From NCBI RefSeq assembly GCF_020216025.1, contig NZ_JAIWNC010000005.1, positions 124,001-188,000 on the forward strand: DNA of 64,000 nucleotides, given 5' to 3'. This stretch comes from Jidongwangia harbinensis (GTDB taxonomy: Bacteria > Actinomycetota > Actinomycetes > Mycobacteriales > Micromonosporaceae). The position numbers were made by a program, and so were the translations under genes. The notes below the pieces were generated by a model that searched no databases, was not told where the DNA came from, and worked only from the letters and a program-made list of their open reading frames with translations. Positions 35,923-38,551 of the stretch are shown in pieces. How positions within the stretch are numbered: position 1 is the stretch's first letter; every line of letters begins with the position of its first letter.

Positions 35923-36327
35923 TCACCGGCCCTGGCGGATGCCCTCCATCAGCACGTCACGCAGGTCGTCGAGCAGTTCGCGGGCCGCGTCGCCGTCGCT
36001 GACGTGCATCTGCAGCGGCACCGACTCCCGGTCCCGGCCGACGATGACGTCCAGCGCGCACAACGCCCGGCCGGCCAGCTCGCTGCTCACCCCGGGCAGC
36101 GCCGCCGCGGCGAGGCGGTCGTCCCGCCAGGCCCGCCCGTACGACTCCGGCACCCCGGCCGCGATCACCGCGATCGCCGCGAGCGCCTGGGCCGGCGGGA
36201 TCTCCTGGAGCAGCACCGTCGGCGTCTCCCAGACCCGCAGCACCACCTGGGAGACGGCCCGGCGCCGCTCGCTCGGGGCCAGCACGGCCAGGGCGTCCAG
36301 CACGTCCGGGGCGCTCACGTCCGTCAT
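35923..36327 (-). CDS. Hypothetical cytoplasmic protein
   Basis: A 134-residue, mainly alpha-helical protein without signal peptide or membrane helix. Ala/Leu-rich segments (LAAIAVIAAGVPESYGRAW, LAGRALCALDVIVG) recall the DUF4259-type family, but I could not match it with confidence. ATG 36327 (MTDVSAPDV) or ATG 36336 may be the start. It is convergent with the preceding kinase gene and divergent from the aromatic attenuator region. Confidence 0.5.
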   Translation of the reverse strand: MTDVSAPDVLDALAVLAPSERRRAVSQVVLRVWETPTVLLQEIPPAQALAAIAVIAAGVPESYGRAWRDDRLAAAALPGVSSELAGRALCALDVIVGRDRESVPLQMHVSDGDAARELLDDLRDVLMEGIRQGR

Positions 36328-36388
36328 GGCGACCATCTGATCACAAGGGCGGGCCGATTCCTATCCGGTCATCCGCTAGGATGGTCAC

Positions 36389-36454
36389 GTGTCCCGCATG
36401 TATCCGTGGTTTACGAGGCCGGCTCAGTCCGGTGCCTCGGCCATGCACGCATGA
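36389..36454 (+). CDS. Aromatic leader peptide of the DAHP synthase attenuator
   Basis: A 21-codon ORF (GTG 36389; internal ATG 36398) containing the codon run for MYPWF: Tyr 36401-36403, Pro, Trp 36407-36409, Phe 36410-36412. All three aromatic amino acids are read within four codons, exactly what a sensor for the end products of the shikimate pathway needs. TAGGAT (36377-36382) is a plausible -10 element; it would place the transcript start at about the GTG itself, i.e. a leaderless mRNA. The stop (36452-36454) lies 25 bases before the terminator stem. Confidence 0.85.
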   Translation: MSRMYPWFTRPAQSGASAMHA

Positions 36455-36485
36455 CCTGAGACACCCGCCAGAGCCGGCCAAGGCA
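36433..36485 (+). promoter_or_regulatory. Antiterminator pairing in the DAHP synthase leader
   Basis: TGCCTCGGCC (36433-36442) can pair with GGCCAAGGCA (36476-36485), nine of ten bases, which would capture the 5' arm of the terminator. A second, competing stem joins GGCCGGCTC (36417-36425), just after the aromatic codons, with GAGCCGGCC (36471-36479), perfect over nine bases. A ribosome stalled at the Tyr/Trp/Phe codons would block the second stem and favour the antiterminator; one that reaches the stop codon would cover 36433-36442 and allow termination. Confidence 0.75.
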
Positions 36486-36512
36486 GCGACGACCGTCGCT
36501 GCCTTTTCGTTT
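36480..36512 (+). terminator. Attenuator terminator upstream of DAHP synthase
   Basis: AAGGCAGCGAC (36480-36490) and GTCGCTGCCTT (36495-36505) form a perfect 11-bp stem with a GACC loop. TTCGTTT follows, an unusually T-rich stretch for this genome. It lies between the leader peptide stop and the DAHP synthase start, as expected for a transcription attenuator. Confidence 0.9.
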
Positions 36513-36578
36513 GCGACGAGCAGCCGGCTCACGCACGGGGCACCGGCCCCCGGGCGACCGGCGGAAGGATCGACAGCC

Positions 36579-37685
36579 GTGACCGTGTCGCCCAAGCGGC
36601 TCCGCCACACTGCCAGCACCGGAGACGTGTCCAACGGGCACCGGGTCCGGGACCAGCGCATCGAGACCGTCGTACCGCTGATGAGCCCGGCGCTGCTCCA
36701 CCACGAGCTCCCGCTCACCCCCGACCTGCAGGACACCGTGCTGGACAGCCGGCATCAAGTGGAAGACGTGCTGACCGGCCGAGATCCCCGGCTGCTGGTG
36801 GTGGTCGGCCCGTGTTCGGTGCACGACCCGGTCGCCGCCGGCGAGTACGCCACCCTGCTGCGCGCCGAGGCCGACCGGCTCGCCGACGACCTGCTGATCG
36901 TGATGCGGGTGTACTTCGAGAAGCCCCGCTCCACGGTCGGCTGGAAGGGCCTGATCAACGACCCGGCGCTGGACGGCACCGGCGACGTCGGCACCGGCCT
37001 GCGGATCGCCCGCAACCTGCTGCTCGAGGTGGTACGCCACGGCCTGCCGGTCGCCGTGGAGTTCCTCGACCCGATCACGCCGCAGTACATCGCGGACACC
37101 GTCGCCTGGGGTGCGATCGGCGCCCGTACCGTCGAATCCCAGGTCCACCGCCAGCTCGCGTCCGGCCTCTCCATGCCGATCGGCATGAAGAACCGCCCGG
37201 ACGGCAGCATCTCCACCGCCATCGACGCGATCAACGCGGCCGCCGCGCCGCACGTCTTCCCCGGCATCGACTTCTCGGGTACGCCGGCGATCCTGCACAC
37301 CAGCGGCAATCCCGACTGCCACCTGGTGCTGCGCGGCGGCGGCGGCAAGCCGAACTACAGCGCGGCCGACGTCGCCGCGTCACTCGAGCTGTTGCGCCGC
37401 GCCGAGCTGCCGGAGCGGCTGGTCATCGACTGCTCGCACGGCAACAGCGGCAAGGACCACCTGCGCCAGCCGCTGGTCGCCGACGACGTGGCCGGTCAGG
37501 TCGAGGCCGGCGAACGCGGCATCAGCGGCGTGATGCTGGAGAGCTTCCTGGTGCCCGGACGGCAGAACCTGGGCGGCGACCTGACCTACGGCCAGTCGGT
37601 CACCGACGCCTGCATGGGGTGGCAGCCCACGGTCGACGTCCTGGAACGCCTGGCCACCGCCGCCGCCAAACGCCGCACCGCCTGA
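36579..37685 (+). CDS. 3-deoxy-7-phosphoheptulonate synthase (DAHP synthase, type I)
   Basis: Catalyses the first step of the shikimate pathway, condensing phosphoenolpyruvate with erythrose 4-phosphate. Family motifs: VVVGPCSVHDP, YFEKPRSTVGWKGLINDP, SGNPDCHLVLRGG, and IDCSHGNSGKDH (metal-site His). About 368 residues fits the AroFGH-type class rather than the longer type II enzyme common in actinobacteria. I start it at GTG 36579, after GGAAGG; GTG 36585 is an alternative. The frame stays open back to 36381 across the attenuator, but that extension is unlikely to be used. Expression is probably controlled by the aromatic leader. Confidence 0.93.
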   Translation: MTVSPKRLRHTASTGDVSNGHRVRDQRIETVVPLMSPALLHHELPLTPDLQDTVLDSRHQVEDVLTGRDPRLLVVVGPCSVHDPVAAGEYATLLRAEADRLADDLLIVMRVYFEKPRSTVGWKGLINDPALDGTGDVGTGLRIARNLLLEVVRHGLPVAVEFLDPITPQYIADTVAWGAIGARTVESQVHRQLASGLSMPIGMKNRPDGSISTAIDAINAAAAPHVFPGIDFSGTPAILHTSGNPDCHLVLRGGGGKPNYSAADVAASLELLRRAELPERLVIDCSHGNSGKDHLRQPLVADDVAGQVEAGERGISGVMLESFLVPGRQNLGGDLTYGQSVTDACMGWQPTVDVLERLATAAAKRRTA

Positions 37686-37722
37686 CCCCACCCCCGCCCC
37701 CCTCTCCCCGCCCTCTCGTGAC

Positions 37723-37797
37723 GTCGATCTTGGACTTGTGGTGCCTGTCTTGTCGGTGCGACGCGGCTTATGTCACCACCACAAGTCCAAGATCGAC
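37723..37797. repeat. 21-bp perfect inverted repeat (hairpin element)
   Basis: The arm beginning GTCGATCTTGGACTTG (37723-37743) is matched exactly, inverted, at 37777-37797, with a 33-base spacer. It starts 37 bases after the DAHP synthase stop and could act as a terminator-like hairpin. The length, perfect arms and lower GC content make it look like a REP/MITE-type dispersed element instead. Confidence 0.7.
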
Positions 37798-38030
37798 GGA
37801 CTCGGACGCGGTGGCTGTCCCGGGTCGAGGGGTAGGCCATGACCGGCTCACGCGGGGCTTGACCGCCTGACCACAGGCCCTGACCGGCTCGCGCGGAGCG
37901 GCACGAACCAGCGGTGGACCCTGCGGGTTTTTGGTGGTTGAAGCAGACTCGACTTTCGAGCTTTGAGCGCGGGCAGTAGCAGGTCCGCGCCGCTCGCGCA
38001 GTGCCACAGTTCCTTCAGCGCACCAATGGT

Positions 38031-38242
38031 GCGTGTGGAGTTCGGGTGCGGTGGGTGCCGCACATCCGCACAGCCTGCAGCCACCATCAGCACGTGCGGA
38101 CTTCCGGCGCGGTGGCCGCCGCACATCCGCACAGCCTGCAGCCACCATCAGCACGTGCGGACTTCCGGTGCGGTGGCCGCCGCACATCCGCACAGCCTGC
38201 AGCCACCATCGGCACGTGCGGACTTCCGGTGCGGTGGCCGCC
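38031..38242. repeat. 61-bp tandem repeat, about 3.5 copies
   Basis: The unit begins GCACATCCGCACAGCCTGCA and recurs at 38060, 38121 and 38182, nearly identical, with a partial, diverged copy before the first and a truncated copy after the last. It includes the palindromes GCACGTGC and CTGCAG. Because 61 is not divisible by three, the repeat cannot encode a repeated protein. Confidence 0.9.
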
Positions 38243-38551
38243 GGGAGTCCACACGTAGGGCAGGCTGGAGCTGACGCGACTCGGCTTCCCCGCCGCCGAC
38301 CAGTCGTCCGGCCCCCGCCCGGCTCCCCGCCGGCTCGGGCGGAAGAGGCGGTCCGGTCGTGGCGAACGCGCCAGCCACCACCGCGCGGGTTCCCGCAAAC
38401 GGCTCCGCGCCTTTCGCATGTCCTCTCGGGCGTCACGCGATCACCCGGAAGCGACTGTCCACAACGGTCGGTGACGGCTGACTGGACGATAGGTAGTCGG
38501 CACGGAAAAAGGCACATCCGGACGCATCCCTACTGACCAAGGGGGGTAACA

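Follow-up and report, generated by a model that had tools for sequence, protein, structure and literature searches.

The window analyzed here is a 64,000-nucleotide stretch of the Jidongwangia harbinensis genome, and it carries a type I DAHP synthase (DAHPS) gene preceded by a short leader on the same strand (Table 1). The identity of the gene product, as given by the first-pass annotation, was confirmed by domain matches (DAHP_synth_1 and the aroFGH equivalog), and the PDB relatives closest to the protein included Phe- and Tyr-sensitive DAHPS. The 21-codon ORF that had been described upstream was found in its place, with Tyr, Trp and Phe as codons 5, 7 and 8 of VSRMYPWFTRPAQSGASAMHA.

Table 1. 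Positions of the DAHPS gene and its leader elements in the window
Feature	Positions	Strand	Remarks
-10 hexamer TAGGAT, predicted leaderless start	36377-36382	+	ends 6 nt before the leader GTG
Leader ORF VSRMYPWFTRPAQSGASAMHA	36389-36454	+	GTG start, TGA stop at 36452-36454, 21 codons
Tyr control codon TAT	36401-36403	+	
Trp control codon TGG	36407-36409	+	
Phe control codon TTT	36410-36412	+	closest to the stem; 4 nt to P1 in the window
Local hairpin past the codons	36414-36439	+	36414-36422 with 36429-36439
P1 5' arm (hub) GGCCGGCTC	36417-36425	+	
Helix B 5' arm, within P1	36431-36438	+	pairs with 36458-36465; loop contains the leader stop codon
5' arm of the antiterminator first annotated	36433-36442	+	pairs with 36476-36485, reaching the terminator 5' arm; 9/10 pair
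P1 3' arm GAGCCGGCC	36471-36479	+	terminator directly after, zero nt between
Intrinsic terminator	36480-36512	+	11-bp stem 36480-36505 plus T-rich tail
Type I DAHP synthase gene	36579-37685	+	GTG start; NCBIfam PRK12755/aroFGH and Pfam PF00793 above cut-offs

Class II DAHPS was also matched in the same genome, once at full length (L325, contig C48) and once as a split match covering family positions 4-168 and 226-433 (L326, contig C45), and therefore at least one more DAHPS enzyme is present beside the attenuated one. The 600 nt upstream of the full-length match showed no leader; the stretch scanned upstream of the split match lay mostly inside the gene. Just past the DAHPS gene of the window there is a 22-nt perfect inverted repeat (37722-37743 and 37777-37798, arms 33 nt apart) that may be a terminator or a mobile repeat, followed by a tandem array at 38032-38243 (61-nt unit, 3.5 copies, 94% matches).

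We searched relatives with the DAHPS protein, which matched in 323 of 354 family genomes, and fetched the upstream regions of part of the matching loci (175 regions, 136 of them family copies). A leader was scored where a short ORF had at least two aromatic residues within six residues near its start and a TANNNT motif 5-8 nt upstream of the start. This rule was satisfied in 145 of the 175 loci; the other 30 also gave no covariance model match at E <= 1. By our own grouping, leaders were present in 122/128 family copies and 23/39 loci from other families of the order, and in 0/8 divergent family copies. All 57 first copies fetched from the genus of the window had one.

The distance from the -10 motif to the start codon was 7 nt in 103 leaders, 6 nt in 41 and 8 nt in one. 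This spacing pattern supports leaderless initiation at the GTG, and the leaderless translation proposed earlier gained support from a TANNNT motif 6-7 nt before ATG or GTG in 144/145 leaders. An ATG at 36398 was rejected as the leader start because the conserved spacing fits the GTG. A scan of 36250-36650 found no sigma-70-type promoter, with no -35 match. A short leaderless ORF in which Tyr, Trp and Phe fall within seven codons appeared in 0/2900 shuffles of the 145 positive regions; the looser two-aromatics rule fired in 20/2900 shuffles, and the antisense strands gave 0/145. These rates are drawn from regions already picked as positive. A chance ORF was rejected on the 0/2900 result and on TATNNNTGGTTTA, which occurs once in the genome, at the leader locus.

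Removal of six identical leader ORFs reduced the 145 leaders to 139 distinct ones. All three of Tyr, Trp and Phe were present in 131 of these, while seven had no Trp and one had no Tyr; Trp thus occurred in 132/139 (131 with all three and one with Trp and Phe only), Tyr in 138/139 and Phe in 139/139. The aromatic codons were therefore kept in relatives, and a conserved short ORF with codons for the products of the pathway stands before the gene (145/175 loci, 131/139 distinct leaders), as in a ribosome-mediated attenuator. The order of the aromatic residues varied among the 128 distinct peptides, with YxWF in 24, WYxWF in 16, YWxF in 14 and WxFYWF in 13, and WYxxF also found.

Codon choice in the leaders was strongly biased. 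The Tyr codon was TAT in 140/146 cases, the last Phe codon was TTT in 136/139 leaders, and TTT accounted for 154/185 of all leader Phe codons. In contrast, 39 DAHPS genes of the same genus used TAT in 0/232 and TTT in 1/168 cases, and four genes of the window used each of them in 1/39 cases. Among the other leader codons (Met and Trp excluded), 660/2287 ended in A or T. In our reading, the TAT/TTT preference reflects selection for codons that are slow and sensitive to charging; alternatively, it could stem from a constraint acting on the U-rich stretch at the RNA level.

Among 80 loci from named organisms, 30 were assigned by us to Actinomycetota from their titles, and 26 of these 30 met the leader rule. 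The carriers included Paractinoplanes, Micromonospora, Kribbella, Pseudonocardia, Amycolatopsis and Mycobacterium, as well as Nocardia, Rhodococcus, Gordonia, Glycomyces, Streptomyces sp. 150FB and others. The covariance model matched 24 of the 30 at E <= 0.05, namely 23 of the 26 rule-positive loci (all except L237, L238 and L245) together with L244. Two Nocardiopsis loci (L241 and L272) and one MAG (L255) showed neither a leader nor a model match. Of the 50 named loci outside Actinomycetota, eight met the loose rule with unrelated peptides and none matched the model. The named loci and the other fetched loci are not independent sets because several share genomes; L231 and L009, for example, have an identical leader. 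The leader of Streptomyces sp. 150FB (L247, MSAVNRWYWRYEPAPGGAGGHVR) has Tyr at the usual position of the last Phe and contains no Phe codon.

The covariance model, which was built partly from the window site, scored that site at E = 2.1e-20, and the next site in the genome (E = 0.25) lay antisense beside the leader. Across the class, model R1 found one site in each of 69/394 genomes, which belong to 29/138 genera. The element was present in at least 12 families, ten by model R1 and two more with leaders found earlier. Downstream of it lies either type I DAHPS or a protein in which a chorismate mutase domain is joined to a weak DAHPS domain of the B. subtilis type, possibly degenerate; such fusions were found in one family and, within a second family, in a single genome (L229). 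The fusion domains were checked for L198 and L205, and the remaining fusions (L194, L196, L199, L201-L203, L212-L221 and L229) were assigned from tblastn alignments to L205, which in some cases covered part of the L205 length.

Trp was absent from the leaders before the fusions (0/18), which had Tyr in 14/18 and Phe in 18/18, and was present in 15/29 DAHPS leaders of the same class set; both sets were chosen by hand and left out L211, L212 and the window copy. L211 and L212, read from the alignments, also had no Trp. The Trp-less fusion leaders, which come from few lineages, fit the branch fed by chorismate mutase. One large genus also had no Trp before DAHPS. Ten loci from one genus of another family (L178, L179, L183-L186, L188, L189, L191 and L192) had RRYPYF-type leaders, likewise Trp-less, before type I DAHPS.

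The first-pass annotation had proposed that this leader senses all three products of the pathway at once, against a background in which attenuators sense one amino acid. That background was too narrow, as the Corynebacterium glutamicum aroF leader AroR is described with Phe-Tyr-Phe (Mentz et al., 2013, PMC4046766; the leader is also reported in PMC3890552) and the Streptomyces lividans ilvL leader with Ile, Leu and Val codons (PMC8079986). The leader may plausibly sense all three simultaneously. We suggest tentatively, with somewhat less than even confidence, that one leader senses the charging of tRNA-Tyr, tRNA-Trp and tRNA-Phe through rare U-ending codons that run counter to the usage of the genome, and that its codon set is edited to the place of the enzyme in the pathway, with Trp retained mainly before enzymes that supply all three branches and absent before the chorismate mutase fusion. 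It is also possible, though we lean against it, that the sensor in practice answers to Phe only, or perhaps also to Trp, with Tyr and the upstream codons carried along or of minor effect. The presence of Phe in all 139 distinct leaders agrees with this, as does the first GGCYN of the hub, which sits 4, 5 or 8 nt after Phe in 143/145 leaders, and so does the behavior of AroR in C. glutamicum, which is described in a review as rising under Phe limitation, with Tyr limitation without effect (PMC11802643; this review and PMC11525245 relay Neshat et al., 2014). However, Tyr is nearly as constant as Phe, and the bias toward its TAT codon matches that toward TTT, which is hard to explain for an idle codon, and Trp is kept in most leaders despite its shifting position.

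The secondary structure elements of the first-pass annotation were present in the window. The 9-bp stem after the aromatic codons consists of CGAGGC (36414-36419) paired with 36434-36439 and CGG (36420-36422) paired with CCG (36429-36431), with a 2-nt bulge. The 11-bp terminator was found where it had been placed, between the leader and the gene, with the tail TTCGTTTGCG, and it was the sole terminator-like site in 36250-36650 (shuffle mean 0.0). Conservation of the helices was counted in alignment A1, which holds 54 representative leaders picked by us from 123. The terminator helix was paired in 98.9% of cells with 7/9 pairs changed on both sides, P1 in 88.7% with 7/14, the equivalent of the local stem in 84.7% with 3/8, and helix B in 82.8% with 2/6. 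For P1, helix B and the terminator taken jointly, 0/500 shuffles reached the observed pairing, the number of both-side-changed pairs or the covariation score, in tests that ignore kinship. Sliding the partners lowered the pairing from 91.6% to 36-49%, a control that favors this set because the structure was derived from the same sequences. The duplex between the hub and segment 3 fell below the 1% shuffle level in 107/123 leaders.

The annotated antiterminator pairing, which does exist in the window, did not hold as a general helix. Its position was the best complement of the terminator 5' arm in 43/57 loci of the genus and was not common to other clades. Over the 54 leaders, 64.5% of its cells were paired against 61.4% after shuffling, and five pairs were changed on both sides against 6.1, with 474/500 shuffles as high; its covariation score (0.158 against 0.118) and its changed cells (25 against 15.2) both exceeded all 500 shuffles. 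Covariation was thus seen for the local stem but not, as an excess of both-side-changed pairs, for the annotated antiterminator, and this helix was rejected as the general one for that reason and for its clade-limited position. Judged from the alignment, the broadly conserved alternative helix is P1. The local stem and P1 use the same hub, and together they provide two mutually exclusive folds with evolutionary support.

P1 ends 0-1 nt before the terminator in most clades, by inspection. The script found a U-tract hairpin in 123/145 leaders; 14 of the others had no T tract, and eight had a similar hairpin on visual inspection, in L152 with a poor T run. These 22 leaders lie outside the counts for the hub duplex, the antiterminator position and the ribosome folding. 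In 15 related loci (the 14 without a scripted T tract and L148), the P1 3' arm is at the same time the 5' arm of a GAGCCGG...CCGGCTC hairpin, and the same arrangement was present in 10/10 named loci that we picked by leader type. P1 and this hairpin are mutually exclusive because they share the P1 3' arm. Elsewhere P1 only abuts the terminator, and a clear overlap was confined to the lineage without a T tract. A candidate conserved helix between GAGCCGG before and GCCGGCTC after the terminator (3:5) was visible by eye in several clades; its registers differed, and it was dropped except in the lineage without a T tract.

The presence of the parts and the conservation of the leader support the earlier claim of a ribosome-mediated attenuator before type I DAHPS. 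We consider the leader to be probably a transcription attenuator of the AroR kind that works through P1. Transcription would start at the GTG, and the ribosome would read the leader without a Shine-Dalgarno site. When Tyr-, Trp- or Phe-tRNA is short, the ribosome would wait at the TAT/TGG/TTT cluster, where it would cover the start region and the codons and disfavor the local fold, the putative anti-antiterminator. The freed hub could then pair with the stretch immediately preceding the terminator (P1 plus helix B). Lying flush with the base of the terminator, P1 would presumably prevent the terminator helix from forming within the polymerase, and DAHPS would be transcribed. With all three amino acids plentiful, the moving ribosome would be over the hub as the terminator emerges, P1 would not form, and transcription would stop. 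We infer both the leaderless start and the stalling.

The step in which P1 acts as the antiterminator is, taken alone, evenly balanced in our judgment. We prefer P1 in this role because its 3' arm joins the downstream hairpin in the lineage without a T tract, and because C. glutamicum ilvBNC has adjacent antiterminator and terminator bases. Folding calculations with the ribosome at different positions gave clade medians for the P1 core probability of 1.0 at Tyr, 0.6-1.0 at Trp and 0 over the hub; 14 loci in which the script found no 5-nt P1 core were skipped. With no ribosome, the median was 0.46 in the genus of the window, 0.96-1.0 in three groups and 0.01-0.34 in two groups. P1 forms without a ribosome in several clades, and the P1 model therefore requires the local fold to win kinetically. 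When the ribosome was assumed to cover 11 nt beyond the first base of the A-site codon, a stall at Phe abolished the lower portion of P1 (medians 0 to 0.42), and P1 still formed with the ribosome at the stop codon (about 0.99). Against the P1 model, P1 and the terminator have no paired bases in common in the window, and the terminator formed in every scenario tried in the six leaders folded to the end of the terminator. Masking of the terminator 5' arm by a stall was not found across clades, and a ribosome at Tyr or Trp left the arm less masked than it was in the absence of a ribosome. Equilibrium folding was not decisive as an arbiter of the switch.

In a classical version, which we regard as rather unlikely, the ribosome at the last Phe covers the hub, 36433-36442 pairs into the terminator 5' arm, and P1 serves as the protector. 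Compared with the best fold available before synthesis of the terminator 3' arm, forcing this antiterminator in the window cost 14.2 kcal/mol with no ribosome, 12.8 at Tyr, 8.2 at Trp and 0.6 at Phe, which fits the response to Phe but not Tyr reported for AroR; however, a ribosome at the stop codon also brought the cost down to 0.8. The same-place complement in most loci of the genus and the covariation score and changed cells above all shuffles speak for it, but the position is not common to other clades and its both-side-changed pairs are no more than in shuffles. It also gets the sign wrong in the lineage whose P1 arm belongs to the terminator-like hairpin. On these mixed folding results, both P1 and the annotated helix are candidate antiterminators.

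In the Rfam scan of the window, only a tRNA elsewhere reached the gathering score and the hits at the leader were weak and irrelevant, so neither a T-box nor another Rfam element was found there. Arrest of the ribosome by a peptide that binds a free aromatic amino acid (TnaC-like), or a riboswitch or T-box, is very improbable: the C-terminal end of the peptide is partly conserved within clades (RPAxAGASAM, APGGAGG), but it varies between clades along with the RNA helices, and the chain at codons 5-8 is too short for the tunnel elements of known arrest peptides.

Attenuators of the E. coli trpL and pheL type are also known (compare PMC11802643). In these, the control codons immediately precede competing helices and an intrinsic terminator. 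The window leader shares this layout, but it has codons for three aromatic amino acids, is predicted to be leaderless, and has a long-range helix that abuts the terminator rather than overlapping it. As described in PMC11857589, C. glutamicum ilvBNC has a near-leaderless peptide and anti-antiterminator, antiterminator and terminator hairpins, and the adjacent antiterminator and terminator bases, with a trinucleotide overlap, have mutational support; it differs from the window leader in its branched-chain codons and in that overlap, as P1 and the terminator have none. A Corynebacterium ilvB leader is also described in PMC10272879. The Acholeplasma aroF element uORFC-13-1 likewise has a short ORF containing Phe codons, located upstream of a terminator and a DAHPS gene, but it is reported from Acholeplasma only, with another consensus and a peptide described as having at least one Phe codon (PMC8632094).

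The nearest known relative of the window leader is AroR. Both have adjacent aromatic codons before a DAHPS gene, Tyr-Pro-Trp-Phe in the window; AroR has no Trp and reportedly ignores Tyr limitation, whereas the window type has Tyr, Trp and Phe (PMC4046766, PMC11802643). In its accessible text, Seliverstov et al. (2005) describe no conserved structures before Phe/Tyr genes in 20 actinobacterial genomes (PMC1262725), and the leaders listed in the accessible text for S. lividans (PMC8079986) and C. diphtheriae (PMC5784534) include none for DAHPS. Among the matches listed in our search of the open-access literature (subscription papers lay outside its scope), we noticed no report of a Tyr-Trp-Phe leader. 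The window leader appears to be a Tyr-Trp-Phe variant of the AroR-type switch that is widespread in actinobacteria. The single-species observation of AroR would then become a class-wide RNA family, without an Rfam match in the present scan, at the entry of the shikimate pathway in numerous actinobacteria, including producers of antibiotics. The three-codon cluster raises the question of one attenuator integrating several amino acids, and the reversed synonymous codon usage that of rare codons tuning the sensitivity to tRNA charging. The adjacent, non-overlapping geometry of helix and terminator bears on how much overlap attenuators need.

In a genus that we infer to be Corynebacterium, a set that does not contain C. 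glutamicum itself, 13/14 DAHPS loci had a leaderless leader, 12 of these with RFYF. Model R1 matched 10/14 loci at E <= 0.045 (best 4.1e-6) and did not match the other four, and the same order of hub, P1 and terminator was visible, so that AroR-type leaders and the window leader share the RNA architecture as well as the DAHPS position with adjacent aromatic codons. The start region of the window leader (36389-36393) can pair with 36460-36464 after the stop codon (helix P0). Similar pairing showed a modest excess in relatives, with 35/123 below the 5% level of the shuffle control, and was also seen by eye in several RFYF leaders.
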